From IMG/VR virus record IMGVR_UViG_3300005965_000004, positions 21,395 through 85,394 of that record: a DNA stretch of 64,000 bases; one strand, 5' to 3'. Positions 21,216 to 64,000 of the stretch are shown piece by piece (the first letter of the stretch is position 1; each line of letters opens with the position of its first letter). The DNA comes from a virus. The translations under genes and the position numbers were made by a program. The notes under the pieces were generated by a model. The model worked only from the letters and a program-made list of their open reading frames with translations. It made no database searches and was not told where the DNA came from.

Positions 21216-22625
21216 CTATTCAAAGTCAATCATTTTTTTGAACTTATCGTTTGTATCTTTACTTAAAACTCCCTTTGCGTCTTTAATAGCACTACTAACC
21301 TTTTTCTTCTTGTCTTTATCACTCGGAGGGTCTCTGGATATTGATCCAGTAGTATCTCCAACTTCTGTCTCCTCATCTTCAAAAACTCTCATCTTGTAAT
21401 AATCAACACAAACATTCATACCCTTCTTATTCAAACCATATCTGTTTTTCAGTACCATCCAATAGTACTTTCCAACTTTTCTTAAATCATTCGATTGAGT
21501 TACTCCAATTATAACATCAGCAGTTGCTGCTGTTCCAATGGAGTCAGATATATCAGTCAAATCTATTTCAGCACCACCAAAACCCTTACGGTTTGTCTGA
21601 ACTGCTGAAACGATAGGAAGAGACATCTCCACAGCAACTGCTCTTACTTCCTCTGAAATTCTCTTGACTTCAAGATATGTATTATCACCCTTGTTTTTAT
21701 GAATAGGGTTCATTATACCAAGATAGTCTATGAATATTATATCAGGAGTAAACTTCTTCCTAACCTTAAGCTCTTTTAGTAAATTTCTAATATGGTTGGC
21801 GTTGATAGATGTTGGTGGATATTCCTTTACTATTATCTTCTTACTGACTTGCTTTTTAACCTTTTCAAACTTAGAGTGAAACTTGTCTTTAGTCAATAGT
21901 TTCAAATCCTCAGTATTAACATCAAACATATTTGACATTATTCTTTCTGAGATTTTGTTTTCTGACATTTCACAAGACACATAAAGGACGTTCTTGTTTC
22001 TAAGAACACAATCAACAGCAAGAGAAGTCATTATCAAAGACTTACCCATATTGGTTTCGGCCATGAACAATGTCAATGACTTTTCATGGAATCCACCTTC
22101 TATTATCCTATTGAGAATACCGATAGAGGTTGGTATCACTCTGTCAACATCATGTAGGAACTTATACAATCTTTCTTCCTCTTCCATAAAATCAAGTCCA
22201 ACTTTAGAGTCAAAACTAAAAGCTATTGCTTCTCTCAACTGATCTGGAGTCTTCTTAATATCATCTATTTTTTTGTTACTGAGATTCACAGCAATATCAA
22301 CATTGATGTTATGAATCAACTTTTCTCTCATAAATTCTTCTATCTCTTCCAACAAGAAATCTGACTGATATTCAGAAACATCAGTCTCCATAATTTCTAA
22401 TAATCTTTTGTACACACTCTCATTATCAAGTTCAAGACGCATTTCGGGAACTGTTGGAAATCTCTCAAATTTTTCATACATTTTTATGACAGACTTTATC
22501 AACTGAACGTTCTTATGATCTTCAAAAAGTTCAGGGACAAGAAACGGCATAACCTTGTCCCTAACATTCTCGATTGTAAAAAGAAACTTTATGAGAACAT
22601 TTTCAAAGAATACAGCTTCTTTCAT
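21216..22625 (-). CDS. 41: replicative DNA helicase (gp41/DnaB-like)
   Basis: It unwinds DNA at the fork. An N-terminal helical domain precedes a RecA-like core with Walker A MAETNMGKS (about 188-196), Walker B IIFIDYLGIMN near 300, and an SAVQTNRKG motif. A basic tail follows. 469 residues matches T4 gp41 (475). No intein is present, unlike gp41 genes of some related environmental phages. Confidence 0.92.
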   Translation of the reverse strand: MKEAVFFENVLIKFLFTIENVRDKVMPFLVPELFEDHKNVQLIKSVIKMYEKFERFPTVPEMRLELDNESVYKRLLEIMETDVSEYQSDFLLEEIEEFMREKLIHNINVDIAVNLSNKKIDDIKKTPDQLREAIAFSFDSKVGLDFMEEEERLYKFLHDVDRVIPTSIGILNRIIEGGFHEKSLTLFMAETNMGKSLIMTSLAVDCVLRNKNVLYVSCEMSENKISERIMSNMFDVNTEDLKLLTKDKFHSKFEKVKKQVSKKIIVKEYPPTSINANHIRNLLKELKVRKKFTPDIIFIDYLGIMNPIHKNKGDNTYLEVKRISEEVRAVAVEMSLPIVSAVQTNRKGFGGAEIDLTDISDSIGTAATADVIIGVTQSNDLRKVGKYYWMVLKNRYGLNKKGMNVCVDYYKMRVFEDEETEVGDTTGSISRDPPSDKDKKKKVSSAIKDAKGVLSKDTNDKFKKMIDFE

Positions 22626-34510: not shown

Positions 34511-34601
34511 AAAAATAGGTTATATATAAATATATATATATACTAGGTCTTTAAAGGACCTAGTACTAGGCCCTAGAGGGACCTAGGCCCAGGCCCTAAA
34601 G
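34511..34601. other. AT-rich tract and palindromes (candidate origin element)
   Basis: A (TA)-rich segment at 34521-34541 includes TATAAATA at 34525-34532. It is followed by imperfect palindromes: CTAGGTC/GACCTAG around TTTAAAG (34543-34563), then a CTAGGCCC/GGGACCTAG pair and a GGCCC/GGGACC stretch to 34601. Together with the adjacent tandem repeats it forms the divide between early and late transcription. Confidence 0.55.
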
Positions 34602-34731
34602 GGACCTAGGCCTAGAATAACCCTAAAGGACCTAGGCCTAGAATAACCCTAAAGGACCTAGGCCTAGAATAACCCTAAAGGACCTAGGCCTAGAATAACC
34701 CTAAAGGACCTAGGCCTAGAATAACCCTAAA
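34602..34731. repeat. five perfect tandem copies of a 26-bp unit
   Basis: Units start at 34602, 34628, 34654, 34680 and 34706 and are identical. Each contains the palindromes CCTAGG and TAGGCCTA followed by GAATAACCCTAAA. Units are contiguous without spacers, so this is not a CRISPR. Iteron-like origin or regulator-binding array are the main options. The T4 origin oriF lies in the homologous uvsY region. Confidence 0.9.
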
Positions 34732-34745
34732 GGGCTCTGAAAGCA

Positions 34746-34760
34746 AACCGCTTCGCGGTT
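34746..34760. other. short GC-rich hairpin in the uvsY leader
   Basis: AACCGC and GCGGTT form a 6-bp stem with a TTC loop, about 30 nt before the uvsY start. There is no U run, so a leader structure or mRNA-stability element is likelier than a terminator. Confidence 0.4.
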
Positions 34761-47592: not shown

Positions 47593-50500
47593 ATGGCAGC
47601 AACAATAATAAGCTCAATTCAAACCGGTCAGAAAACTGTTGCCAGCGCAAACACTTCTGATACAGTTGCAATTACGTCAGTAGATACTTCTAAGTCTATA
47701 CTTCTGTACAGTGTAAGACTTCCAGGAGCTCCTAATGCGGGTGGAACTCGTTTGGTTGGGCATTTGACAGATTCTACAACAATCACTTTTTATAAAGACG
47801 AAAGTGGTGACGATATAATAGTTGAATGGAAAGTGTTGGAATTCAGTAGTGGAGTTTATGTTCAAAGAGGCACCACTACAGAAGCTTCCAGTCAAATCAA
47901 TAATACTATTAGCTCTGTAGATACTGGAAAATCTTTTGTATTATCGGATGGTTATTGGATAGATGCTACTTTTACAAGGTCTACAGAAAAACCTAATGCG
48001 TGGTTGACTTCTTCAACTAATGTAAGAATTGAAAGAGTCTCATCTGTATCTAATATGAGGACCGTGTTTCAATGTGTACAGATAGATAATGCTACTACCC
48101 AAACGGGATTGTTAAATCTAACATCGACTTCAGATACCGTATCCATCACCAGCGTTACAACTGGTAAAGCTTTTGTCATCGGCTCGGGAACTGATGGTGG
48201 TGGAGTAAAAGTAGAAGGTCCAGATGACTGGGCCATGTCGGTAGAATTGACAAGCTCTACTAATATAACATTCAGGCATTATGATAATGCCAGAGATTAT
48301 AATTGTAGGTGGCACGTAATAGAATTATCAGACGGTGATTTTTCGGTTCAGAGAGGTAACCATAGCTTTTCATCTACAAACGCTGAAGATGTAATATTAT
48401 CATCTATAAATGAAGATGTGTCTGTGGCTATTATGGGAGGTCAAGGAAATAGCCACATGGCTCGTACCTCTGAAAGTAATAGAGGAGCAAATTCTTATCC
48501 ATCATCTTGTGCTACCAATAAGTTAACATCTTCTAACAATATGGAAGTTGAGTGTGATGGATGGAATAGTGGAGTGACTACTATATTAGATTGGCAAGTT
48601 TTAGAATTTCCTGAACCTGACGAAAGTTCATCATCGAGTTCCAGTTCGAGTTCATCGTCGAGTAGCCAAAGCTCCCAGTCTTCTGAAAGCAGTAGTTCGA
48701 GCAGTTCTCAGAGCAGCCAGAGTTCTGAGAGTTCTTCTTCACAAAGTTCACAGAGCAGTGAATCGAGTTCAAGTAGCTCTTCACAAAGTTCACAGAGCAG
48801 TGAAAGCTCAAGTAGCCAAAGTTCTCAGTCTTCTGAAAGCAGTAGTTCGAGTAGTTCACAAAGTTCACAGAGCAGTGAATCGAGTTCTAGCCAGAGTTCG
48901 CAGTCTTCTGCCTCGAGTAGTTCGAGCAGTTCACAATCGAGCCAGTCATCTGAGTCAAGCTCTAGTAGTTCTTCTCAGAGTAGTCAAAGTTCAGAATCAA
49001 GTAGCTCACAAAGTTCTCAGAGTTCCGAGAGTTCTTCTTCACAAAGTTCTCAAAGTTCTCAAAGTTCTGAGTCGAGTTCTTCTTCGAGTAGCCAGAGTTC
49101 TCAAAGTTCTCAAAGTTCTGAGTCGAGTTCTTCTTCGAGTAGCCAGAGTTCTGCCTCGAGTAGTTCGAGCAGTTCACAGTCAAGTGAATCTAGTTCAAGT
49201 AGTTCGTCATCGAGCAGTCAAAGTTCGCAATCTAGCCAGTCCTCTGAGTCAAGCTCAAGTAGTTCCCAGAGTAGTCAGTCTTCTGAGTCAAGCTCAAGTA
49301 GTTCCCAGAGTAGTCAGTCTTCTGAGTCAAGCTCGAGTAGTTCCCAGAGTTCGGATAGTTCCAGTGAGTCTGGTCCTTCCAGTTCAAGTTTTAGTTCCGA
49401 TTCTAGTTCTAGTTTGAGTTCAGAAAGTTCTTCCTCATCGAGTAGCCAATCTTCTCAGTCGAGTCAATCTTCTGAGAGTAGCTCGAGTAGTTCATCTGAA
49501 TCTAGTCGGAGTTCGGCGTCGAGTAGCTCGATTAGTTCTCAGAGTAGTCAGTCTTCTGAGTCAAGCCAAAGCTCATCCTCGAGTAGCTCAAGTAGTTCTA
49601 GCCAGAGTTCTCAAAGTTCTCAGAGTAGTGAGTCAAGCCAAAGCTCTTCCTCGAGTAGTTCGAGTAGTTCGAGCCAAAGCTCCCAGAGTTCACTAAGTAG
49701 TGAATCAAGTCCTAGTAGTTCGTCTGAAAGTTCTGTTTCGAGTGGCTCGCAAAGTTCTCAGAGCAGCGAGTCAAGTAGTTCAAGCAGCTCGCAAAGTTCT
49801 CAGAGTTCTCAGTCATCTGTTTCGAGTAGCTCAAGTAGTTCTAGCCAGAGTTCTCAAAGTTCTCAGAGTAGTGAGTCTAGTCCTAGTAGTTCATCTCAGA
49901 GTTCTGCTTCGAGTAGCTCAAGTAGTTCTAGCCAGAGTTCTCAAAGTTCTCAGAGTAGTGAGTCTAGTCCTAGTAGTTCATCTCAGAGTTCTGCTTCGAG
50001 TAGCTCGAGTAGTTCTTCGTCCAGCTTGTCAAGCTCAAGCTCTAACAGTAGTTCCATAAGTTCTAGTTCATCAAGCAGCGAATCAAGTTCGTCAAGTGAG
50101 AGTAGCTCTTCTGATGACTATGATTATTTCAAGTTGAACAACATAAATAACCCTTATATAAACAAGTGTTATTCGTCTACTTATTACAACAACGAGAGAG
50201 AACTATACGATTTACTTGTCACAGAGGCATATAATACTCATGGTGTCTGTATGATTTACTATGTGACTTCTTACGATAAAGATTATGATAGAGTTTGGGG
50301 AGAAGATAACAATAGAGAATTCCAGAGATACTTCCAATTCAATGCCTACTTCAATCTTCCAAGAGAAGAAAGATTGTGGACAAAGTTTGGAATAGAAGGA
50401 ATAGATCAGTTCTCAATGTATGTGTCCAAGAGACATTTTTGGGATGCTTCTCAGTACAACTCTGGACAGACACAGAAAGTCAACAAACCATATATACCAA

Positions 50501-50805
50501 AGGTTGGAGATTATATACAGTCCAACTATAACAAATACATCTATGAGATAGTCGAAGTAAAAGATGAAACAATGATGTACTTGTTGAGTAAACAACACGT
50601 CTGGGAGTTCTTAGTGAGACCATTCAAGGACGAGAAGATTTCTCTTACATCAGCAACTTCTGCTTCTCCAATATCAGCATCAACGGATAAGACAACAGAT
50701 AAGTTTGATGTTACTCACATAATAGATATTGAGAAGACCGATGTAAACTACGATCCATCTGATACTGAATGTGACCCTAATGATCCGTTTGGGAACTGGA
50801 ATTAG
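47593..50805 (+). CDS. 14: giant serine-rich virion protein with C-terminal gp14-like neck domain
   Basis: Residues 1-340 hold at least three beta repeats (SDTVAITSVDTSKSILLYS-like: VSITSVTTGKAFVIGS). Residues about 344-839 are almost only Ser with Gln, Glu and a few Ala (SSSQSSQSSESS). Residues 840-1070 match T4 gp14: RELYDLLVTEAYNTHGV, RVWGEDNNREFQRYF, LWTKFGIEGIDQFSMYVSKR. T4 gp14 is 256 residues, so the first 840 residues are added. If one chain, it would place a long, possibly glycosylated, serine stalk at the neck. Confidence 0.8.
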   Translation: MAATIISSIQTGQKTVASANTSDTVAITSVDTSKSILLYSVRLPGAPNAGGTRLVGHLTDSTTITFYKDESGDDIIVEWKVLEFSSGVYVQRGTTTEASSQINNTISSVDTGKSFVLSDGYWIDATFTRSTEKPNAWLTSSTNVRIERVSSVSNMRTVFQCVQIDNATTQTGLLNLTSTSDTVSITSVTTGKAFVIGSGTDGGGVKVEGPDDWAMSVELTSSTNITFRHYDNARDYNCRWHVIELSDGDFSVQRGNHSFSSTNAEDVILSSINEDVSVAIMGGQGNSHMARTSESNRGANSYPSSCATNKLTSSNNMEVECDGWNSGVTTILDWQVLEFPEPDESSSSSSSSSSSSSSQSSQSSESSSSSSSQSSQSSESSSSQSSQSSESSSSSSSQSSQSSESSSSQSSQSSESSSSSSSQSSQSSESSSSQSSQSSASSSSSSSQSSQSSESSSSSSSQSSQSSESSSSQSSQSSESSSSQSSQSSQSSESSSSSSSQSSQSSQSSESSSSSSSQSSASSSSSSSQSSESSSSSSSSSSQSSQSSQSSESSSSSSQSSQSSESSSSSSQSSQSSESSSSSSQSSDSSSESGPSSSSFSSDSSSSLSSESSSSSSSQSSQSSQSSESSSSSSSESSRSSASSSSISSQSSQSSESSQSSSSSSSSSSSQSSQSSQSSESSQSSSSSSSSSSSQSSQSSLSSESSPSSSSESSVSSGSQSSQSSESSSSSSSQSSQSSQSSVSSSSSSSSQSSQSSQSSESSPSSSSQSSASSSSSSSSQSSQSSQSSESSPSSSSQSSASSSSSSSSSSLSSSSSNSSSISSSSSSSESSSSSESSSSDDYDYFKLNNINNPYINKCYSSTYYNNERELYDLLVTEAYNTHGVCMIYYVTSYDKDYDRVWGEDNNREFQRYFQFNAYFNLPREERLWTKFGIEGIDQFSMYVSKRHFWDASQYNSGQTQKVNKPYIPKVGDYIQSNYNKYIYEIVEVKDETMMYLLSKQHVWEFLVRPFKDEKISLTSATSASPISASTDKTTDKFDVTHIIDIEKTDVNYDPSDTECDPNDPFGNWN
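48620..50116 (+). repeat. serine-codon low-complexity tract
   Basis: About 1.5 kb of short AGY/TCN serine codon mixtures with CAG/CAA and GAG/GAA interspersed. Local sub-repeats recur (for example AGTTCTCAAAGTTCTCAGAG near 49610, 49850 and 49940), suggesting growth by unequal exchange. Long open frames in other phases here are artefacts of the repeat. Confidence 0.9.
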
Positions 50806-53918: not shown

Positions 53919-53960
53919 GGAGGACAGAGGGTAGCTCCCTTTTCCCGAAACCTTACTTAG
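53919..53960 (+). repeat. 42-nt element, copy 1 (upstream of endonuclease remnant)
   Basis: Identical over 42 nt to 62575-62616. It starts GGAGGACAGAGGG, has TAGCTCCC and TTTTCCCGAAACC in the middle and ends TTACTTAG. GGG and CCC runs can pair in several ways. Both copies sit between a head or neck gene and an endonuclease gene. Confidence 0.92.
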
Positions 53961-53965
53961 GTTAT

Positions 53966-54481
53966 ATGTTGCTTGATGAATTTGTAGAAATTCCTAAGAT
54001 ATTTGAAGAAAATGGTTGTAAACTAATTAGTGATAAATATATAAGTAATGATAAGAAGTTGAAGTATATTTGTGAGTGTGGTAGAGAGTCGGAGATAACT
54101 TTAGCTAACTTTTTTAATGGGTCAAAGATGTGGTTGTATTCGTTCTTTAGGTGAAAGAAAAATTGAAAAATGGTTAAAAGATAATAATATTAAGTTTATT
54201 TCACAAAAAAGATTTAGAGAATGTAAAAATATACGAAATTGCCTTTTGATTTTTACCTCCCAAAATATAATACTTGTATTGAATATGATGGAGAACAACA
54301 TTTTCAACCAGTTCAATTTGGTGGAATTAGTTTAAAAGAAGCTGAATTAAACTTAAAGAATAAGAAGCATAATGATAATATAAAGGAAAAATTTTGTAAA
54401 ATGAAAAATATTCATTTATTAAGAATTAAATATTTAGACAATTGTTTTGAAAAATTAAATGATTGTTTAGGAGGATGTTAA
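53966..54481 (+). pseudogene. frameshifted homing endonuclease (Vsr-like)
   Basis: Three frames give one protein: LISDKYISNDKKLKYICECG, then after a shift near 54120 SLGERKIEKWLKDNNIKFIS, and after another near 54236 the nuclease PFDFYLPKYNTCIEYDGEQHF with NIHLLRIKYLDN. This matches the nuclease of the polymerase-inserted enzyme. Two breaks make it inactive. It ends two bases before the portal start. Confidence 0.8.
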
Positions 54482-54482
54482 T

Positions 54483-56348
54483 ATGGGAATTGATTTGAGT
54501 TCCATTTTTCTTTTTAATCCATTTGCTAAGTACTTCCGTCAGTCAAGACCAGAGGAAGAAAAGGTAGAGGAGCAGGAGATTGAAAATAGTCAGGGTGTAT
54601 CTCAGGAAGAGGTTGACCTTGCTAACTTTATCAACTACGATTATCTATCTGATCCGGGTGCTGCTGTTACATATGTTGGAATACAGTTTGAGCAATACTT
54701 CGGAAGTAAAAGAGGTAGAATACAAAAGTATCGTCAGATGGCGAGGTATCCAATTATTAACGATGCTCTAAACCAAATATGTGATGATGCTGTTGTCGAT
54801 AATCCTGAAGGCGATATGCTAAGTCTTGAGATAAACGAAGAAATTCCAGAACACATTGAGGACGAAATCAGAAAGATATGGGATTACCTTATTGTAAGTG
54901 TTTACAAGTTCAACGAGAGAGGTTGGGAACTATTTAGAAAATGGTTGATTGAAGCAGAAATTTACATTGAGATGGTTCTTAATGATAAGGGTGATGATAT
55001 AATTGGTATCAAAATTCTTCCTGCTCATACCATGATGCCTGTCTACGAAGAGAATAAGGTCAAGGCATACATGCAGGTCAACGTAAATGCTCCTGAGGCT
55101 GTCAAGGGAGTTGACCACACACATCAAGGTAACGTTGCTTATGCTCAGTCAACGTCATATGCCGATGGAGAACCAAACAACATCATATTTGATAAGGACC
55201 AGATTGCTTATGCCAACTATGGAGATTATGGTGAGAACTTTCTTGATGTGAGAGGATTTCTTGAATCTGCTATTAGACCATTCAACCAGCTCAACAACAT
55301 GGAAGATGCCATCGTTGTACATAGACTTGTTAGAGCACCACAAAGAAGAATCTGGAATATCTATACTGGTAGAATGCCAAAGGGTAAGGCTGATGAGTTT
55401 GTAAAACAGCTCGCAAACAGATATAGAAAGAAGTTGATTTACGATCCAGAAACAGGAGCGATGAACTCGGCACAGAATGTTCAGTCGCTTACAGAAGATT
55501 ATTGGTTTACGAGAGATATCAATGGAAACGGAACAACTGTAGATACTATTGGTGGTGAGTCTAATTTCAGTGAAATGGACGACGTAAAGTACTTTCAAGA
55601 AAATCTTTATAAGTCCCTTATGCTACCTCGTTCGAGATGGGAGGACCCAGCGACATCTATGTACTCATCAGGTAAGTCTGGTGAGATTCAGAGAGAGGAA
55701 ATAAAGTTCGCAAGATTTGTAGAGAGATTACAAAGAAGATTCAAATACATCATTCTTGATCCATTCATTACTTTGATGAGACTTCGTGGAATTGACGAAA
55801 GATATGTTGACCAAAACATATTCAATGTTAAGTTTACAAAGTCCAACTTGTTCAAGGAATACAAGGAAATGGAGTTGATGGAATCGAGATTATCCATTCT
55901 TGGAGCAGCATCAGAGTTTATTTACAACCCAACAGAAAATCCAACCGGTTATTTCGCACCAGAATTCGCACTAAAGAGAATGTTCTTGATGAGTGATGAA
56001 GAGTGGATTTGGAATAAGGAATTGATGGACAAGATTAAACCAACTGAAGAAGAGCAGGCTGCTTTGGCAGCGGCTGGTGGTGAAGGCGGTTTCGGTGGTG
56101 CTGGTGAAATTGGTGGAGAATTTGGAGCACCTGATGTTGGTGGTGAAGTAGAGGCCGACGCGGAAGGTGGTGGAGAAGCAGAGGTAGGAGGGGAAGAAGA
56201 GGCTTCTCCAGAGACACCTGAGTCATTTTCATTCGCATTTGGGGATAACGACTCTCAAATTTTGAAAGAATGGAATACATTCGATACGTCAATTAGGAAA
56301 AGATATGAGGACAAAAATTTGAGAAAAAGTTTTAAGTTTAATAAATAA
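54483..56348 (+). CDS. 20: portal vertex protein (gp20-like)
   Basis: Dodecameric DNA-entry portal. Match to T4 gp20 through RGRIQKYRQMARYPIINDAL, ICDDAVVDNPEGDML, LPAHTMMPVYEE, QLNNMEDAIVVHRLVRAPQRR and SLMLPRSRWEDPATS. The last 90 residues are a Gly/Glu/Ala-rich low-complexity extension (EEEQAALAAAGGEGGFGG) not found in T4, then a short basic end. GGAGG lies 8 nt upstream. Confidence 0.93.
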   Translation: MGIDLSSIFLFNPFAKYFRQSRPEEEKVEEQEIENSQGVSQEEVDLANFINYDYLSDPGAAVTYVGIQFEQYFGSKRGRIQKYRQMARYPIINDALNQICDDAVVDNPEGDMLSLEINEEIPEHIEDEIRKIWDYLIVSVYKFNERGWELFRKWLIEAEIYIEMVLNDKGDDIIGIKILPAHTMMPVYEENKVKAYMQVNVNAPEAVKGVDHTHQGNVAYAQSTSYADGEPNNIIFDKDQIAYANYGDYGENFLDVRGFLESAIRPFNQLNNMEDAIVVHRLVRAPQRRIWNIYTGRMPKGKADEFVKQLANRYRKKLIYDPETGAMNSAQNVQSLTEDYWFTRDINGNGTTVDTIGGESNFSEMDDVKYFQENLYKSLMLPRSRWEDPATSMYSSGKSGEIQREEIKFARFVERLQRRFKYIILDPFITLMRLRGIDERYVDQNIFNVKFTKSNLFKEYKEMELMESRLSILGAASEFIYNPTENPTGYFAPEFALKRMFLMSDEEWIWNKELMDKIKPTEEEQAALAAAGGEGGFGGAGEIGGEFGAPDVGGEVEADAEGGGEAEVGGEEEASPETPESFSFAFGDNDSQILKEWNTFDTSIRKRYEDKNLRKSFKFNK

Positions 56349-56359
56349 GTATAATTAAC

Positions 56360-56367
56360 TATAAATA
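56360..56367 (+). promoter_or_regulatory. late promoter (TATAAATA)
   Basis: TATAAATAC in the gap after gene 20, 46 nt upstream of the small core gene. Confidence 0.78.
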
Positions 56368-56412
56368 CTAACTGAGACATTTATTTGCATTAAAAATTGT
56401 TAAGGAGGAGTT

Positions 56413-56592
56413 ATGAAGTCAGTTATAAAAAGAGTTCTCGATGGAGATTGGGCAAGTCTTCAGGCAGACATTGAGAAGATGGCAGCAACTAAGGTCAAGA
56501 CAAAAGTTGACGAAAAGAAGATGGATGTCTTGGCAAAGATGAATGGCATCAATGTTGATAAGCAGAAGGAAGTAATGTCGGTTTCAAAATAA
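56413..56592 (+). CDS. small prohead core protein candidate (59 aa)
   Basis: MKSVIKRVLDGDWASLQADI then a lysine-rich helical tail. Sequence similarity is weak, but position between genes 20 and 21 is where T4 has the prohead core genes 67 and 68. TAAGGAGGAG ribosome site. Confidence 0.6.
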   Translation: MKSVIKRVLDGDWASLQADIEKMAATKVKTKVDEKKMDVLAKMNGINVDKQKEVMSVSK

Positions 56593-56604
56593 TAGGAGAG
56601 ACTT

Positions 56605-57258
56605 ATGAAGCTTTTAACAGAGTTTGTCTCGTTTGATAAACTTGAAGTTATCAAAGAAGAGAAGGAAGGAAAGAAAGAGTTCAGGTTGAGAGGTCCCTTC
56701 TTAGAAGCAGAAATCAAGAACAAGAACGGAAGAGTTTACTCAAAGGATATTCTTGTCCGTGAAGTCAATGACTTTGTGGAATCTAAGATCATGAAGAATA
56801 GAAGTATGGGTGAACTTGACCATCCAGAAAATCCTCAGATTAATCTTGAGAGAGTATCTCATATTATAGAGGAACTTAAAATGGATGGTAACGTTGGTAT
56901 TGGTAGTGCTAAACTCATTGATACACCAATGGGTAGAATTGCCAAGACTCTTGTAGATGAGGGAATCATTGTAGGAATGTCAACCCGTGGTGTTGGAACT
57001 CTTGATGGAGCAACCGTTAAGGAAGACTATAAACTTATCACAGTTGACATTGTTGCTGATCCATCCGCACCTAACTGTTTCGTAGAAGGTGTACTGGAAA
57101 ATAAGGAATTTGTCATTGATGGTGACCAAATTGTTGAGGTTGCTGTGCAGAACTTACAAAGAAAGGTAGATAAAAAATACGAGCCTAACTCATTGTCAAA
57201 GCATGTGTTAGGTTATATGTTAGATTTTTTGAGTGAAATTCAGCGCAAAAATGTGTAA
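56605..57258 (+). CDS. 21: prohead protease (gp21-like)
   Basis: It cleaves scaffold and capsid N-termini during maturation. The catalytic pattern of the herpesvirus-like/T4 protease is present: SMGELDHPENP (His) near residue 73 and GIIVGMSTRGVGTL (Ser) near 125, with ITVDIVADPSAP downstream. 217 residues, as in T4 (212). Confidence 0.9.
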   Translation: MKLLTEFVSFDKLEVIKEEKEGKKEFRLRGPFLEAEIKNKNGRVYSKDILVREVNDFVESKIMKNRSMGELDHPENPQINLERVSHIIEELKMDGNVGIGSAKLIDTPMGRIAKTLVDEGIIVGMSTRGVGTLDGATVKEDYKLITVDIVADPSAPNCFVEGVLENKEFVIDGDQIVEVAVQNLQRKVDKKYEPNSLSKHVLGYMLDFLSEIQRKNV

Positions 57259-57286
57259 AAAGTTGCTGTTTTTTAAGTCCCAATTT

Positions 57287-57294
57287 TATAAATA
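57287..57294 (+). promoter_or_regulatory. late promoter (TATAAATA)
   Basis: TATAAATAA between genes 21 and 22, 31 nt upstream of the gene 22 start. Confidence 0.75.
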
Positions 57295-57324
57295 ATTACA
57301 GCAAATCAATAGGAGGAGCTTGAT

Positions 57325-58122
57325 ATGAGTAAGAAAATTACAGAAAAAATTAAGGAAATGTTGACTCCTGAGGACCTTAAGGTTTTCGAAGCTGCGGTTG
57401 AGAAAATGGTCTCCACAAGAGTCAAGTTGAAGGAAGAGGAAATAAAAGCAAAGTATGACGAGCTTGCTGAAGAGTATGTCAGTAAGAAAGTCAACGAAGA
57501 GCTTGAAACAGCTAAAGCATCTCTTATAGAAGAGTACGACGCAAAGCTTAAGAACATTGAGCAGAAAGTTGTTACAAAGCTTGGCTCTTTCCTTGACCAT
57601 GTTATTGTCGAACAGATTTCTGAAGAATCTATCGAGAAGCTTGCGATTAATGAAATTGCAATGCCGGTTGTTGAACAGATCAGAAAGGTCTTTACAAACA
57701 ACTATGTAGAGCTTGACACTGATGGTGCCGCTCTTCTTAAAGCGGAGCAGCGTAAAGTTGCAAAGCTTGAGAATGAATTGTCAGAAGCTCACGCAAAGAT
57801 TATGGAATCTGAAGAGAGACTTGAGAAGTCAGCAACATTCTTGCTTATTTCTGAAAAGACACAGGGTCTTACAGGAAGTCAGAAGCAGAGAGTTGCAAAG
57901 ATGTTCAAGAATAAGAAGTTTGAAGAAGTCAAAGAAGGAATTGACACATTTGTAGAAATGGTCAAAGAATCCAATTCTCCAAGATTAAAGAGTGTGGGTA
58001 AGGGAACTCTCGACGAAATCATTACTGAGGAAGATAATATTGGAGAAGAAAAGAAAGTAATCAAAGAAGAAAAGCAAGAATTCTCGTTTGCTGAAAGAGC
58101 AAATAGATACTTGGATGAATAA
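57325..58122 (+). CDS. 22: prohead scaffold core protein (gp22-like)
   Basis: Long coiled-coil protein rich in Lys and Glu (residues 15-75 and 135-175), with SEKTQGLTGSQKQRVAKMF near 180, a hallmark of gp22-type scaffolds, and a FSFAERANRYLDE end. It is the internal scaffold around which gp23 assembles and is a gp21 substrate. 265 residues (T4 269). GGAGGAG ribosome site. Confidence 0.85.
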   Translation: MSKKITEKIKEMLTPEDLKVFEAAVEKMVSTRVKLKEEEIKAKYDELAEEYVSKKVNEELETAKASLIEEYDAKLKNIEQKVVTKLGSFLDHVIVEQISEESIEKLAINEIAMPVVEQIRKVFTNNYVELDTDGAALLKAEQRKVAKLENELSEAHAKIMESEERLEKSATFLLISEKTQGLTGSQKQRVAKMFKNKKFEEVKEGIDTFVEMVKESNSPRLKSVGKGTLDEIITEEDNIGEEKKVIKEEKQEFSFAERANRYLDE

Positions 58123-58158
58123 TAAATCGGTCTTACCATAAATGAGGAGGAGAAAGAT

Positions 58159-59517
58159 ATGAGTCTTGCATTAATCAAAAAATGGGAACAGGCTGAAGGT
58201 AAGATGTCCATTAAGGATATCAAGGACAGATACGTTAAGGAAAACCTTGCAACTCTTTTGGAAAACCAGGAGAGAAAGGACTTTAACGGTCAGGAAGTCA
58301 TTAGTGAAGCTTCCAACCACGGTGCTACCAACTATGGTAGTCTTGGTGGATTCACTGATGGTGCCGCTGCAAGTGACTCTTGGATTTTCCGTCCAATTGC
58401 TCTTGCTCTTGTCAGAAGAACATTCCCAGATTTGTTCGCTAACAAGGTTGTCGGTGTCCAGGCTATGTCCACACCTGTCGGTCTTGCATACGCAATGAGA
58501 GTCGTCTACGATGACGGAAACGGAAACGAAGCTGCTTGGGACAATGTTCCTGAGTATGGTGGATACACTGGAAGTCAGGTTGGTGTTTCTGGTACACTTC
58601 AGGGTGGTCATACTAACACATCTGCCGACACAGGTATTTACGACACATCTGGTACTGGTGCTACTACATCTGCTGCTGAAGCTTGGACACTTGATGACAC
58701 TTGTAACTCAGACGAATCCGAAGTTGATGGTTGTGGAGATTGGCCACAGCTTAAGATGAGAATTGACCAGCTTGCTATCACTGCAAAGACCAGAAAGCTT
58801 GCAGCTAGCTTCAGTCTTGAAGCTGCTCAGGACGTAAAGGCGATGCACGGAATTGACATCGAAAGAGAAATGGTTCAGTTCTTGCAGTATGAAGTTACCG
58901 CAGAACTTGACAGAGAACTTATTCTTAGAATGAAGAGTGCGGCTACTGACACTACTAACGGTGGTGAGAATGTTGGTGCTATCGACCTTACTGGTGGTGG
59001 TACTGGTATCGACGGTAGATGGTCTGGTGAAAAATACATGAACATTGTTTCATCTATTGTGTATCAGGCTAACAAGATTTCTGTTACAACAAGACGTGGT
59101 CCTGGTAACTTCGTAGTTGTTTCACCAGCTATCGCAACTGCTCTTCAGGCTGCTGGACACCAGTTCGTAGCATACAACCAGAATGTTAACGCAACTCAGG
59201 TTATGGCTGCAATTGGTAAGCTCAATGGAACAATAGATGTTTACCGTGACCAGTACGCAAGAACAGAATATGCTCTTGTCGGTTATAAGGGTCCTGGTAT
59301 CTCTGATACTGGTATCATCTTTAGCCCATACATCATGGGTCTTACCAACAGAGCAATCCACCCAGATGACTTCACTCCAAGAGTTGGTGTGATGTCCAGA
59401 TATGCTATTACTGACACATTGCTTGGTTCTGGTAGATATTATCGCTTGATACCATACTACAATGTACAGAAGCTTATCCCTGGTGCTACTACTTCTAATC
59501 TTCCTTCTGGTTTCTAA
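58159..59517 (+). CDS. 23: major capsid protein (gp23-like)
   Basis: HK97-fold capsomer protein. Conserved T4-type blocks are clear: NLATLLENQE, TDGAAASDSWIFRPIALALV, FANKVVGVQAMSTPVG, LAITAKTRKLAASFSLEAAQD, YEVTAELDRELI and NFVVVSPAIATAL. The N-terminal 60 residues would be removed by the gp21 protease near LLENQE. Codon use is richer in GC than neighbours, as expected for the most expressed gene. Confidence 0.95.
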   Translation: MSLALIKKWEQAEGKMSIKDIKDRYVKENLATLLENQERKDFNGQEVISEASNHGATNYGSLGGFTDGAAASDSWIFRPIALALVRRTFPDLFANKVVGVQAMSTPVGLAYAMRVVYDDGNGNEAAWDNVPEYGGYTGSQVGVSGTLQGGHTNTSADTGIYDTSGTGATTSAAEAWTLDDTCNSDESEVDGCGDWPQLKMRIDQLAITAKTRKLAASFSLEAAQDVKAMHGIDIEREMVQFLQYEVTAELDRELILRMKSAATDTTNGGENVGAIDLTGGGTGIDGRWSGEKYMNIVSSIVYQANKISVTTRRGPGNFVVVSPAIATALQAAGHQFVAYNQNVNATQVMAAIGKLNGTIDVYRDQYARTEYALVGYKGPGISDTGIIFSPYIMGLTNRAIHPDDFTPRVGVMSRYAITDTLLGSGRYYRLIPYYNVQKLIPGATTSNLPSGF

Positions 59518-59546
59518 TCAGTAAAGATTCGTAAGTATATAAAGTA

Positions 59547-59580
59547 AAAGTCAAGGAGACCATCTCCTTGACTTTTTTAT
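59547..59580 (+). terminator. rho-independent terminator after gene 23
   Basis: AAGTCAAGGAGA pairs perfectly with TCTCCTTGACTT across a three-base loop and is followed by a T6 run, 30 nt after the capsid stop. Confidence 0.92.
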
Positions 59581-59645
59581 TTAAAATATGATAAAATTAT
59601 ATGATTGTCTTTTATCAACGTATAGAATTTGAAGGGAATATTATT

Positions 59646-61322
59646 ATGATATGTGAAATATGTAAAGAATTTGAAACAAAAACTTTTAGAGGTTTGTCAT
59701 TGCATATTAGGAATAATCATAATTTTGATATTAAGGAATATTATGATATTTACTTAAAAAAAGACGCAGAAGGAATTTGCACAGAATGTGGTAAAGAAAC
59801 ATCGTTTATAAGTTTAACAAAAGGATATTTTAATTTCTGTTCATCAAAATGTAGTAATAGTTCAAAAAATACTCGACAAAAAATAGAACAGACAAAATTA
59901 AATAAGTATGGAGATATTAAGTATAATAATAAAGAAAAATCTTCACAAACATGGAGAAATAAAACAATAGAAGAAATTGCAGATATAGTAGATAAAAGAA
60001 GAATTACTAAAAATAAAATATATGGAGATGAAAAGTTTAATAACAGAGATAAAGCAAAAAAAACATGTATAGATAGATACGGAGTAAAACATTTTACTAA
60101 TAGAAAAAAATATATAAAAACTTGTTTGGATAGGTATGGAGTAGAAAATCCGTTTCAATTGGAAGAAGTTAAAGAAGAAATTCGTAAATATTTTTTGGAT
60201 AATTTTGGAGTTGACCATCCAATGAAAATAGAAAAGGTGAAAAATAAAGTAGTTAACGGTGTTAATAATTTTTATAAAAATAAAAACGAAGAGATGTTTA
60301 AGAAGTATTTTAAAATATTAAAATATAAAGATGAAAATAATATACACGTTAGATGTAAAAATTGTGGTTGCGATTTTTGGATACAAAAACAATATTTTAT
60401 TTGGAGATTTAATAAAAAGGTTCATCCTTGCTATAAATGTTACAACCTATCAAATATATCAATCTATGAAAAAGAATTATTTGATTTTATTGAAATTAAT
60501 TACAATGGTGAAATTATAAAAAATTATAGAAAATTGATATATCCATATGAATTAGATATTTATATTCCTGAATTAAAATTGGCTTTTGAATTTAATGGGT
60601 TGTATTGGCATAATGAAAAGTTTGTAGATAAAAATTATCATCTTAATAAAACGGAATTATGTGAAGAAAAAGGAATACACTTAGTTCAGATTTATGAAGA
60701 TGATTGGGTTCTTAAAAAAGATGTAGTGAAATCGAGGATTTTAAATTTATTAGGAAAGTCTAAAAAAATATATGCTAGGAAATGTATTATAAAAGAAGTA
60801 ACATTTAAAGATGCTAAAGAATTTTTAGAAGAAAATCATTTACAAGGTTACTGTGTCAGTAAGATTAATTATGGATTATATTATAATGATGAATTATTAT
60901 CATTAATGACTTTTAGTAAATTAAGAAAAAGTCTTGGTTTTAATAATGTAAATGGATCATATGAATTATTAAGATTTTGTAATAAGCTAAACACTACGGT
61001 TGTTGGTGCTACAAGTAGATTATTTAAAAGTTTTTTGAATAATTATAAACCAGAAATTGTTATTAGTTATGCCGATAGATTTTGGACTACTATTATAAAT
61101 GGTGTAGTTTATGAAAAAATAGGTTTTGAATTGGTTGGTAAGACTACTCCAAATTATTTTTATGTACATAATAAGATAAGGAGAAATAGATTTAATTATA
61201 GAAAAGATATATTGATTAAGCAGGGGTTTGATAAAAATAAAACAGAGCACGATATAATGTATAATAGAGGAATATATAGAATATATAATTCTGGAAATTT
61301 AAAGTATGTTTATAAAAAATAA
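59646..61322 (+). CDS. intact homing endonuclease between genes 23 and 13
   Basis: It begins MICEICKEFETKTFRGLSLH with a zinc finger (start chosen for the AAGGGA upstream), then a second zinc site (CTECGK, FCSSKCSN) and several RYGV-type repeats (LDRYGVENPF) that read DNA in related enzymes. The nuclease is Vsr-like: LDIYIPELKLAFEFNGLYWH and HLVQIYEDDW. A C-terminal domain (LLSLMTFSKLRKSLG, ISYADRFWT) follows. No frame break is seen. Confidence 0.82.
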   Translation: MICEICKEFETKTFRGLSLHIRNNHNFDIKEYYDIYLKKDAEGICTECGKETSFISLTKGYFNFCSSKCSNSSKNTRQKIEQTKLNKYGDIKYNNKEKSSQTWRNKTIEEIADIVDKRRITKNKIYGDEKFNNRDKAKKTCIDRYGVKHFTNRKKYIKTCLDRYGVENPFQLEEVKEEIRKYFLDNFGVDHPMKIEKVKNKVVNGVNNFYKNKNEEMFKKYFKILKYKDENNIHVRCKNCGCDFWIQKQYFIWRFNKKVHPCYKCYNLSNISIYEKELFDFIEINYNGEIIKNYRKLIYPYELDIYIPELKLAFEFNGLYWHNEKFVDKNYHLNKTELCEEKGIHLVQIYEDDWVLKKDVVKSRILNLLGKSKKIYARKCIIKEVTFKDAKEFLEENHLQGYCVSKINYGLYYNDELLSLMTFSKLRKSLGFNNVNGSYELLRFCNKLNTTVVGATSRLFKSFLNNYKPEIVISYADRFWTTIINGVVYEKIGFELVGKTTPNYFYVHNKIRRNRFNYRKDILIKQGFDKNKTEHDIMYNRGIYRIYNSGNLKYVYKK

Positions 61323-61370
61323 TAAATATTTATTGTATTTTTCGCTAAAAAATTCATTTTAGACTAAAAG

Positions 61371-61378
61371 TATAAATA
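61371..61378 (+). promoter_or_regulatory. late promoter (TATAAATA)
   Basis: TATAAATATATG in the gap after the endonuclease gene, 42 nt before the 119-aa gene. Confidence 0.75.
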
Positions 61379-61419
61379 TATGTGAGAGTAAGTTTTAAAT
61401 GTCTTTTAGGAGGTTTGAC

Positions 61420-61779
61420 ATGAAGGTAGTTAACGTTGCTGGTTTTGATGTAAAGTTTGAGAAGGAAGGTAGAGTTTACAGAGTACCTAATGATGGAAGA
61501 CTACATCCAATTCCTGACAAATGTTTTTATGAAGATAATTTTCAGGGTTTGCTAAGAGTAATAATTCCACCACAACCAGTTAAGCAGATTATAAAGAAGA
61601 TGGAATGTTTTAACAAAAAGAATGTTGACGTTAATGAACCAAATATAAAAGAGATTATCATAGATAAAGTTGAAGAGAAGAAAAACAAACCACTCAAGGG
61701 AAAGAAGATCAAATCTAAAGTTAGAGCTGAGTTGAAGAAGACCACGAAAAAGACAAGTCAGAAAAATAAAGAGGAATAA
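61420..61779 (+). CDS. unknown late protein (119 aa)
   Basis: A small beta domain MKVVNVAGFDVKFEKEGRVY...PNDGRLHPIPDKC and a long lysine-rich tail. The AGGAGG site six bases before the ATG at 61420 sets the start. Adjacent to gene 13, it is probably a head or neck component. Confidence 0.6.
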   Translation: MKVVNVAGFDVKFEKEGRVYRVPNDGRLHPIPDKCFYEDNFQGLLRVIIPPQPVKQIIKKMECFNKKNVDVNEPNIKEIIIDKVEEKKNKPLKGKKIKSKVRAELKKTTKKTSQKNKEE

Positions 61780-61782
61780 TTT

Positions 61783-62562
61783 ATGGCTAAGATTACCAAT
61801 TTGAATCAAATGAAGGATTATGTTATAACACAACTAGGACATCCTGTTATCAACATTGAAATTTCTAATACGCAGTTGGAACAGGCTATAGAGGATGCGT
61901 GTCAAGACTTCAATCGTTATAACTACGACGAGGGTTCTTACAGAGACTATTTTATTCTTCAGACATCAGCGGGTCAGCAGGACTATGCTGTTTCCGCTGT
62001 TAGAGATTACTCTACTGGTGCGACTCTTGACAATGTTGAATTTATATGGGATTTCTCTATTTCATTTGGTATGGATGGAATAAACACTTTGTTTAGTCCT
62101 GCTCACATTCTTCTTTACAACCAATATGTGGAGCAAGGTAGCTATCCCGGAGGTCCTGGATATGGAGCACCTGGAGGATTAGCGTTGGCAAACTATCAAA
62201 CAGCTATGATATATCTTGACATGATTAATGAGATGTTTGGTAAGATGTATTCTGTTGACTATATCCCCGGAAGAGAGATTATAAGAATAACACCAACACC
62301 AACAACAGCATTGATTGGTGTGCTCATTCTTTGGAGAAGAGAATATGCTTATAATTTGTATAACAATCCACTAGTAAAGAAACTTGCTGTTGCAAGAGCT
62401 GGCATTAGATGGGGTAGAAATCTTAACAAATATGGTGGACAAATGCCCGATGGTTTGACAATTAATGCTAGTGAAATTATTAGTGAATATAAAGAAATGG
62501 AAGAGAAGTGGCTCGATAGAATGTTTGATGAGTCACATCCTCCCGATTTTATAGTCGCTTGA
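61783..62562 (+). CDS. 13: neck protein (gp13-like)
   Basis: T4 gp13 completes the head at the portal with gp14. Matching blocks: MKDYVITQLGHPVINIEIS, LEQAIEDACQDFNRYNYDEG, YLDMINEMFGKMYSVDYI, ALIGVLILWRREYAYNLYNN and RAGIRWGRNLNKYGGQMPDG. 259 residues (T4 309). Its usual partner gp14 is here the C-terminal part of the serine-rich protein 11 kb upstream. Confidence 0.85.
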   Translation: MAKITNLNQMKDYVITQLGHPVINIEISNTQLEQAIEDACQDFNRYNYDEGSYRDYFILQTSAGQQDYAVSAVRDYSTGATLDNVEFIWDFSISFGMDGINTLFSPAHILLYNQYVEQGSYPGGPGYGAPGGLALANYQTAMIYLDMINEMFGKMYSVDYIPGREIIRITPTPTTALIGVLILWRREYAYNLYNNPLVKKLAVARAGIRWGRNLNKYGGQMPDGLTINASEIISEYKEMEEKWLDRMFDESHPPDFIVA

Positions 62563-62574
62563 TTTATATAATCT

Positions 62575-62616
62575 GGAGGACAGAGGGTAGCTCCCTTTTC
62601 CCGAAACCTTACTTAG
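62575..62616 (+). repeat. 42-nt element, copy 2 (upstream of intact endonuclease)
   Basis: Exact copy of 53919-53960, located 12 nt after the gp13 stop and 40 nt before the next endonuclease start. The trailing ACCTTAC can pair with GTAAGG at 62643-62648, which includes the ribosome site of that gene. Confidence 0.92.
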
Positions 62617-62656
62617 TATGGATTACTCCAATTTAGAACCTGGTAAGGAGTTTATT

Positions 62657-64000
62657 ATGGAAATTTGTAAAGTTTGCGGGAAAGAATGTAAAAATTTCAA
62701 TGGATTAGCTTCTCATATAAATCAAAATCATGCAGATTATAATGTTCAAAAATATTATGATGAATTTCTGTTGAAAGAAGAATCAGAAAAATTTTGTAAT
62801 TTTTGTAAAAAACAATTGAAATTCAAGAGACTTTCTATTGGTTATGCAAAATATTGTTCCAGTCTGTGTAGTAATAAATCAGAACAGACAAAAAATAAGT
62901 ATAAAAATACCATGATGAATAAGTATGGAGTAGATAATTCTTTTAAATCAGAAGAAGTCAAAAGTAAAATTAAGGAAACAAATTTAAAAAAATATGGCAG
63001 TGATGTATATATTGTTAGTGAAGATTGCTTGACAAAGAAAAATAATACATTATTAAACAAATATGGAGTCGATCATTATTCTAAAACAGATATTTTTAAA
63101 ATGAAAGCTTCTAATAAATGTTATTGGAAGTCTAATGAATCCAGAATGAAATTGTTAAAAATATTTGAAGAAAAAAAATTGAAAACTATAATGGATAGAT
63201 TAGACGAATCTTTGAGTATCGTTTCTGTAAGTCAAGATAAAATTGTTTTGTTTTGTAATAATTGTAAAAATGAAGTCGAAATGTCGATACAGATGCTTCA
63301 TAGAAGATATAAAAATAATGAAGTTATATGTAACGATTGTAATAAATATAGAAAGCCAATATCCAGTTTTGAATTTGAATTGTTTGATTTTATCAAAAAA
63401 CAATATCAAGGTATCATTCTTACCAACGAAAAAAATATAATTGATTCATTAGAATTGGATATTTACTTACCAGAATTGAAATTGGCATTTGAATTTAACG
63501 GTCTTTATTGGCATTGTGAAATTCATAAAGATAAAAATTATCATCTAAATAAAACAGAAGAATGTGAAAAACAAGAAATTCATTTAGTACATATTTATGA
63601 AGATGATTGGATTTACAAACAAGATATAGTTAAATCAAGAATACTTAATTTACTTGGTAAATCTAAAAAGATTTATGCCAGAAAATGTTCATTGGAAGAA
63701 GTATCATATAAAGATTCAAAAGAATTTCTCGAAAAAAATCATATTCAAGGTAATTGTATATCTAAAATTAGATTGGGACTTTATTATGAAAACGAATTAG
63801 TTTCTTTAATGACTTTTGGTAAATTAAGAAAATGCCTAGGTCAAAAATCGAAAGAAAATTCATATGAATTATTAAGATTTTGTAACAAGATAAATACTTC
63901 TGTTGTTGGTGGTGCTAATAAGTTGTTTAAGTATTTTATAAATAATTATACGTTTAGTTCTATTATTAGTTATGCTGACAGAAGTTGGACAATGAATAAT
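62657..64000 (+). CDS. homing endonuclease, paralogue of 59646, cut by the window edge
   Basis: An open frame of 448 codons runs to the end of the window. It starts MEICKVCGKECKNFNGLASH, with a second zinc site (FCNFCKK, YCSSLCSN), KYGV repeats (MMNKYGVDNSF, LNKYGVDHYS), and the Vsr-like nuclease LDIYLPELKLAFEFNGLYWH with HLVHIYEDDW. It is closely related to the enzyme at 59646 throughout. The C-terminus lies beyond the window. Confidence 0.82.
   Translation, partial: MEICKVCGKECKNFNGLASHINQNHADYNVQKYYDEFLLKEESEKFCNFCKKQLKFKRLSIGYAKYCSSLCSNKSEQTKNKYKNTMMNKYGVDNSFKSEEVKSKIKETNLKKYGSDVYIVSEDCLTKKNNTLLNKYGVDHYSKTDIFKMKASNKCYWKSNESRMKLLKIFEEKKLKTIMDRLDESLSIVSVSQDKIVLFCNNCKNEVEMSIQMLHRRYKNNEVICNDCNKYRKPISSFEFELFDFIKKQYQGIILTNEKNIIDSLELDIYLPELKLAFEFNGLYWHCEIHKDKNYHLNKTEECEKQEIHLVHIYEDDWIYKQDIVKSRILNLLGKSKKIYARKCSLEEVSYKDSKEFLEKNHIQGNCISKIRLGLYYENELVSLMTFGKLRKCLGQKSKENSYELLRFCNKINTSVVGGANKLFKYFINNYTFSSIISYADRSWTMNN

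Follow-up and report, generated by a model that had tools for sequence, protein, structure and literature searches.

A structured leader RNA with a palindromic loop in front of phage homing endonuclease and replication-initiator-type genes

Introduction

The stretch of 64,000 nucleotides (nt) analyzed here, referred to as the window, corresponds to positions 21,395 to 85,394 of the IMG/VR virus record IMGVR_UViG_3300005965_000004. It belongs to a T4-like phage, as seen from the portal gene (54483–56348, Portal_T4) and the neck gene (61783–62562). The window contains a 42-nt element in two copies, 53919–53960 (copy 1) and 62575–62616 (copy 2), which are identical letter for letter and stand in front of two different homing endonuclease genes. 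The question raised by this locus is what such an element does. The initial annotation offered a mobile border, a cleavage or homing site, a translation switch, or part of an endonuclease-associated RNA, and it is the last two options that are supported by the comparison with relatives from other phages.

The 42 nt make up the 5′ portion of a folded leader RNA, which is about 57 nt long and has in addition a pairing partner at the Shine-Dalgarno (SD) site of the following gene. About 80 distinct relatives of this leader were collected, nearly all from viral contigs, and the comparison of their sequences establishes the junction, the pairing between a loop and the SD, a second loop that is palindromic, and the linked genes. 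The leader is probably a gate for translation, which may respond to its own mRNA via homodimerization.

Structure of the leader RNA

The intact members fold into a three-way junction with the order P1, GACA, P2, U, P3, AUUA and P1′. Under this model 92.7% of the pairs in 38 aligned members (alignment A2) are standard, the covariation score is 0.777 as opposed to 0.191 for shuffled alignments, and 13 of 17 pairs show changes on both sides; a shift of the partners by a single column makes the covariation signal collapse. In-register pairing of P1 is seen in every intact member, and all seven P1 columns have changes on both sides. P2 is paired in 100% of the alignment cells, while P3 shows covariation on all five pairs. 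The same fold is given independently by RNAalifold. Folding of single sequences was misleading, with unremarkable energy z-scores and alternative folds, and only the alignment revealed the junction.

The apical loop of P3 is complementary to sequence that is located at the SD of the next gene or overlaps it. In 39 members the loop–SD score is 649, compared with 470 ± 15 when the SD regions are shuffled among members, and in a second set of 45 further members it is 745 compared with 531 ± 15; none of 2000 shuffles reaches the observed value in either set. At copy 2 this pairing (Table 1) bears out the initial proposal that the 3′ end of the element pairs with a downstream ribosome site. A simple anti-SD helix formed by the 5′ strand of P3 had also been considered and was replaced by the P3 loop–SD pseudoknot after more members were found. 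Upstream of the leader a −10-like promoter hexamer is enriched (51 of 62, with 37 in shuffles), although its position is too loose to rely on.

The palindromic loop of P2

The scans that left the interior of P2 free yielded 54 members, among which 44 P2 hairpins are distinct. In 36 of these 44, a Watson-Crick palindrome of 4 nt or more lies at the center of the loop, while shuffled loops give 11.3, with a maximum of 22 in 5000 shuffles. The palindromes themselves vary and include AGCU, UCGA, UGCA, GAUC, CAUG, GGCC, AAUU and GUAC, as well as longer ones, and in all eight exceptions GC or CG is retained at the center, GACG being the loop in two. Where the P2 loop has 7 nt, two free bases precede the palindrome and one follows it (NN-palindrome-N).

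A partner for the palindrome within the same molecule is unlikely, because a second copy in the remaining leader is no commoner than chance, with 4 cases where 6.8 are expected. Self-complementarity that is kept while the sequence changes is best explained by a contact between two RNA copies. Two kinds of non-palindromic loops, UAGCA and UGCUA (L135 and L124 versus L188, L205 and L209), come from different phages and are mutually complementary, possibly as heterotypic kissing partners.

Extent of the family and the downstream genes

The comparison of related portal loci gave a full-length relative in front of an HNH-type endonuclease gene (L021), and pattern scans of viral contigs gave first L083, then 17 and then 47 stretches. 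P1 and the SD pairing were free in the scans, the P2 loop in those used for its palindromes and P3 in the first ones (the 17 and 47 stretches), and the members were selected by P1 and not by P3. The length of P1 separates the members (4–15 pairs) from the few chance matches (0–2 pairs). Several copies can occur in one phage, with 10 in G002, a 253-kb relative, and five in G021.

Among named phages, blastn found the element in five Enterocloster phages, where 22 identical nt lie upstream of an endonuclease annotated as I-TevI-like, and the element and the endonuclease gene sit 3′ of a group I intron core. These were the only confident matches, other short ones having E near 1 and being left unused. 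The family is essentially viral, since a near-identical pattern in 84,980 bacterial and archaeal genomes gave five sites, only one of them a true member. The element occurs in two of 398 Bacillota genomes, one of which is the seed genome, and a search of plasmids gave no credible match.

Most of the 72 open reading frames (ORFs) found downstream of the leader match endonuclease families. These are of unrelated folds: EDxHD-like, HNH/NUMOD4, GIY-YIG and LAGLIDADG. The initial annotation had tied the element to endonucleases and had counted copies unrelated to them as evidence to the contrary; the tie holds for most of the 72 ORFs, but it is not exclusive, since eight or nine of them are of the replication-initiator type (DUF1376, RepA_N, HTH_36/RP-C and DnaD-like). 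One member precedes an OrfB_IS605/TnpB-like gene (L130:8193-9028). In L211 and L135, the leader-bearing replication-initiator-type genes are followed by apparent small and large terminase subunit genes, as read from translations.

The comparison with endonuclease-free alleles, which had been suggested initially, shows the same junctions without the element. It is absent at the neck junction of the endonuclease-free relatives L010, L012, L013, L014, L015 and L017, and at the portal junction of L022, L023 and L025, from which it follows that the element travels with the gene.

The two copies in the window

No further sites in the window match the central 22 nt of the element at up to three mismatches, and none are expected by chance. 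The two copies are also the only close ones in the whole 85,394-base source record, and both are present in the contig of a 99.9% identical sister strain. The genome-wide search, likewise suggested at the outset, adds a third, diverged copy at 1415–1470 of the source record, outside the window and upstream of the start of a GIY-YIG gene.

Both copies follow a gene stop, as had been noticed: copy 1 starts 6 nt past the TAA of a small gene ending at about 53913, and copy 2 starts 12 nt past the stop of the neck-protein gene at 62562. The endonucleases differ, as was also noticed, with a broken gene behind copy 1 and an intact gene of the EDxHD type behind copy 2. The location of the repeat stands, but its boundaries do not, as the conserved unit at copy 2 is 62574–62630 and pairs with 62642–62648. 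The likely start of the second endonuclease, chosen by SD spacing, is the ATG at 62657 and not position 62618. In the sister contig this gene is complete (L001:224-1849, minus strand).

Table 1. Parts of the intact leader (copy 2), the decayed copy 1 and the endonuclease genes that follow them, in window coordinates
Feature	Position	Strand	Remarks
P1, 5′ strand (UGGAG)	62574..62578	+	pairs with 62626-62630
Junction J1/2 (GAC, then A of P2)	62579..62581	+	GACA in all aligned members; the stretch belonged to the scan patterns
P2 hairpin (AGAGG-GUAGCUC-CCUUU)	62582..62598	+	palindrome AGCU in the loop at 62589-62592
P3 stem-loop, closing CC/GG	62600..62621	+	loop contains the anti-SD CCUUACU, 62607-62613; covariation and permutation tests
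Junction J3/1 (AUUA)	62622..62625	+	conserved in aligned members; belonged to the scan patterns
P1, 3′ strand (CUCCA)	62626..62630	+	in-register pairing, covariation
SD-side partner (GGUAAGG)	62642..62648	+	partner of the P3 loop; the SD AAGGAG (62645-62650) overlaps it
EDxHD-type homing endonuclease gene	62657..64000	+	phrog_3339, E=6e-126; runs off the window
Decayed copy 1	53919..53960	+	keeps P1 5′ strand, P2 and P3 5′ half; lacks J3/1, P1′ and the SD partner
Broken endonuclease gene	53966..54481	+	resembles the L021 endonuclease in its N-terminal part; nuclease remnant in the C-terminal part

Copy 1 is a decayed fossil in front of a broken gene, of which the ORFs 53966–54154 and 54239–54481 are left. 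It has no P1 pairs and scores 32.4 bits with the family model R1, as opposed to 65.6 bits for the intact copy 2. The end of the identity at 53960 would most simply be explained by a deletion that fused the 5′ half of P3 to the start of the gene. The exact limit of 42 nt would thus be an accident of this decay together with a strong constraint on the P2 region, as the string GACAGAGGGTAGCTCCCTTTTCC recurs in several unrelated members of the family.

Proposed mechanism and alternatives

By pairing with the SD, the P3 loop would block binding of the 30S subunit and hide the start site, and there is good reason to regard the paired form as the OFF state. Such a gate would keep the translation of a replication initiator, or of an endonuclease that is potentially harmful, low or conditional even in phage operons with strong transcription. 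Two copies of the mRNA could kiss through their self-complementary P2 loops. A rising amount of transcript would then favor P2 kissing and stabilize the closed state, so that a dosage brake would be the most likely use of the leader. The chances that the leader RNA dimerizes appear about even, and the further step, that dimerization controls translation, is put forward tentatively. It is with similar caution that we propose a widespread class of phage RNAs that sense the concentration of their own mRNA by kissing-loop homodimerization to close the start site. If so, selfish nucleases and replication initiators would share a dosage compensation that needs no protein, with many different palindromes doing one job.

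Several points weigh against the proposed mechanism. The palindromicity could instead serve a protein dimer or reflect selection at the DNA level, and kissing pairs such as AAUU or AGCU are weak on their own. A site for a ligand would likewise agree with the strong conservation of the junction, although GACAG, UUU and AUUA belonged to the search patterns and the conservation of these letters is partly imposed. Moreover, a third endonuclease gene in the window (59601–61322) has no leader, and thus not every endonuclease gene of this genome is equipped with one.

A ligand-binding junction is the main rival to the dosage brake. The leader would in that case be a riboswitch, in which the junction (GACA, U and AUUA) binds a small molecule signaling the stage of infection and shifts the loop–SD pseudoknot, while the P2 palindrome only stabilizes a dimeric aptamer. 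A core and its coupling to the SD are both seen, but the core letters are partly imposed by the scan patterns. Translational riboswitches commonly combine a compact three-way junction, conserved letters within it and SD pairing, and the wide host range of the phages is compatible with a common metabolite. Yet the nucleases, the initiators and the one TnpB-like gene share no metabolite pathway, and no known riboswitch family matches. On balance a riboswitch is possible, although not the favored explanation.

It is somewhat less probable that the RNA is a fixed attenuator, which merely lowers the translation of the endonuclease in the manner of the mobE or I-TevI hairpins, with neither an input signal nor a dimer. 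Structures that sequester the ribosome-binding site are documented for phage endonuclease genes (PMC3014915), and the strong loop–SD pairing of the leader agrees with this explanation. However, a plain hairpin would be enough for the purpose, and the leader, which in unrelated phages conserves its three-way junction and has a second loop that is palindromic and covaries, far exceeds the need.

Opening or closing of the start site by a conserved host or phage protein, such as a ribosomal protein, an RNase or an initiator, is unlikely. The three-way junction, with its invariant G-U pair, does resemble protein sites in general, but the apical loop varies freely while staying palindromic, which is not typical of a loop contacted by a protein, and near the loci examined, which were not screened systematically, no common protein partner stood out.

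A feature acting as DNA, that is a homing or cleavage site, a mobile border or a recombination hot spot left by the endonuclease, can practically be dismissed: two identical copies do adjoin two endonuclease genes, and endonuclease-free alleles lack the element, but it lies only upstream and always on the strand of the gene, it shows strong RNA-type covariation, its pairing with the SD is specific to the start of the gene that it precedes, and it also stands in front of replication genes. An origin as part of a group I intron or as a mobile border was rejected, since Rfam detects a group I intron only at L084, separate from the element, and since the element never lies on both sides of the insert but just upstream. 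A relationship to preQ1, hammerhead or hepatitis delta virus (HDV)-like RNAs was dropped, for want of their conserved cores or of a match in Rfam.

Other features of the phage

In the sister contig, a large terminase gene directly downstream of the second endonuclease (L008:5221-7404, minus strand) is apparently fractured. Its C-terminal half begins with an apparent C-intein fragment, MSLKTNTKLLNSYEVETPEGF, and further on lies a second, apparently complete LAGLIDADG intein (Pfam Terminase_6C, Intein_splicing); neither record was found to contain the N-terminal half. Genes fractured by split inteins are known together with this type of endonuclease, and the terminase gene resembles them.

Between the major capsid gene and the leaderless endonuclease gene, the region 59535–59660 contains a hairpin, which a T run follows, and the promoter-like TATGATAAAAT. 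Tandem 26-nt repeats of AAAGGACCTAGGCCTAGAATAACCCT are present in at least five copies at 34599–34759, and 47593–50805 encodes a protein of 1070 amino acids with a very long repeat region rich in serine, glutamine and glutamate.

Comparison with known systems

Rfam 15, which includes HEARO and the known riboswitches, gave no family match at gathering or E-value level for the element of the window, for L021, L083, L084, L088 and L089, or for 14 further loci. The best sub-threshold match to the L021 member, the DUF805 RNA RF03081, has 16.2 bits with E=0.8, as opposed to a gathering score of 51.1 bits, and its alignment covers other pairings. The RNA was not found described in the literature within reach, which comprised few preprints, a minority of the subscription journals and no supplements; it may be included in lists of candidates, for example that of PMC8040213. 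As an uncatalogued phage RNA family with strong covariation and a well-defined set of linked genes, it would supply a missing piece in the account of how genes for mobile endonucleases stay in check in highly expressed operons. In viral DNA without annotation, its model also flags genes of selfish nucleases and of the replication-initiator type.

A close parallel is offered by the ribosome-binding-site-sequestering structures in the mRNAs of the phage homing endonucleases mobE of Aeh1, I-TevI and segB; those of mobE and I-TevI are simpler hairpins, which were shown to block 30S binding (PMC3014915). Like them, the leader precedes phage endonuclease genes, forms pairs with the ribosome-binding site and is expected to limit translation. 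The mobE-type leaders, however, are described as local hairpins or helices particular to each gene, while here one three-way-junction RNA with a loop–SD pseudoknot is conserved and serves nucleases of several folds as well as replication genes.

The P2 loop is similar to the dimer-initiation kissing loops of retroviruses, such as the dimer-initiation site (DIS) of human immunodeficiency virus 1 (HIV-1) and the loops of the Moloney murine leukemia and sarcoma viruses (MoMuLV and MoMuSV), in that it is an apical loop with self-complementarity, kept here while the sequence changes. The HIV-1 DIS loop has two free bases 5′ and one 3′ of its palindrome, a layout shared by the P2 loops of 7 nt. GACG, the loop of two of the distinct P2 hairpins, is also that of MoMuLV and MoMuSV. 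The GACG loops of these viruses kiss with two base pairs only (PMC7357161). The retroviral loops belong to RNA genomes, whereas the leaders described here are those of mRNAs of bacterial DNA viruses, the shortest palindromes have 4 bp, and dimerization is only predicted.

The guanidine-II riboswitch is likewise a cis-regulatory bacterial RNA with palindromic loop–loop kissing. It consists of two simple hairpins, the ACGR loops of which are thought to kiss within one molecule (PMC7357161), and differs from the leader in having no three-way junction and in the genes that it controls. Functional RNA oligomers are rarely observed in nature (PMC7357161), and if the palindromic loop mediates dimerization, the leader would be a rare example of gene control by a functional RNA homodimer, and it would provide a dosage sensor that is ready to use and can be re-coded freely. 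Leader RNAs that close the ribosome-binding site are already known; what the present family might add to them, as a minority possibility, is the self-dimerization of an mRNA as the sensor.

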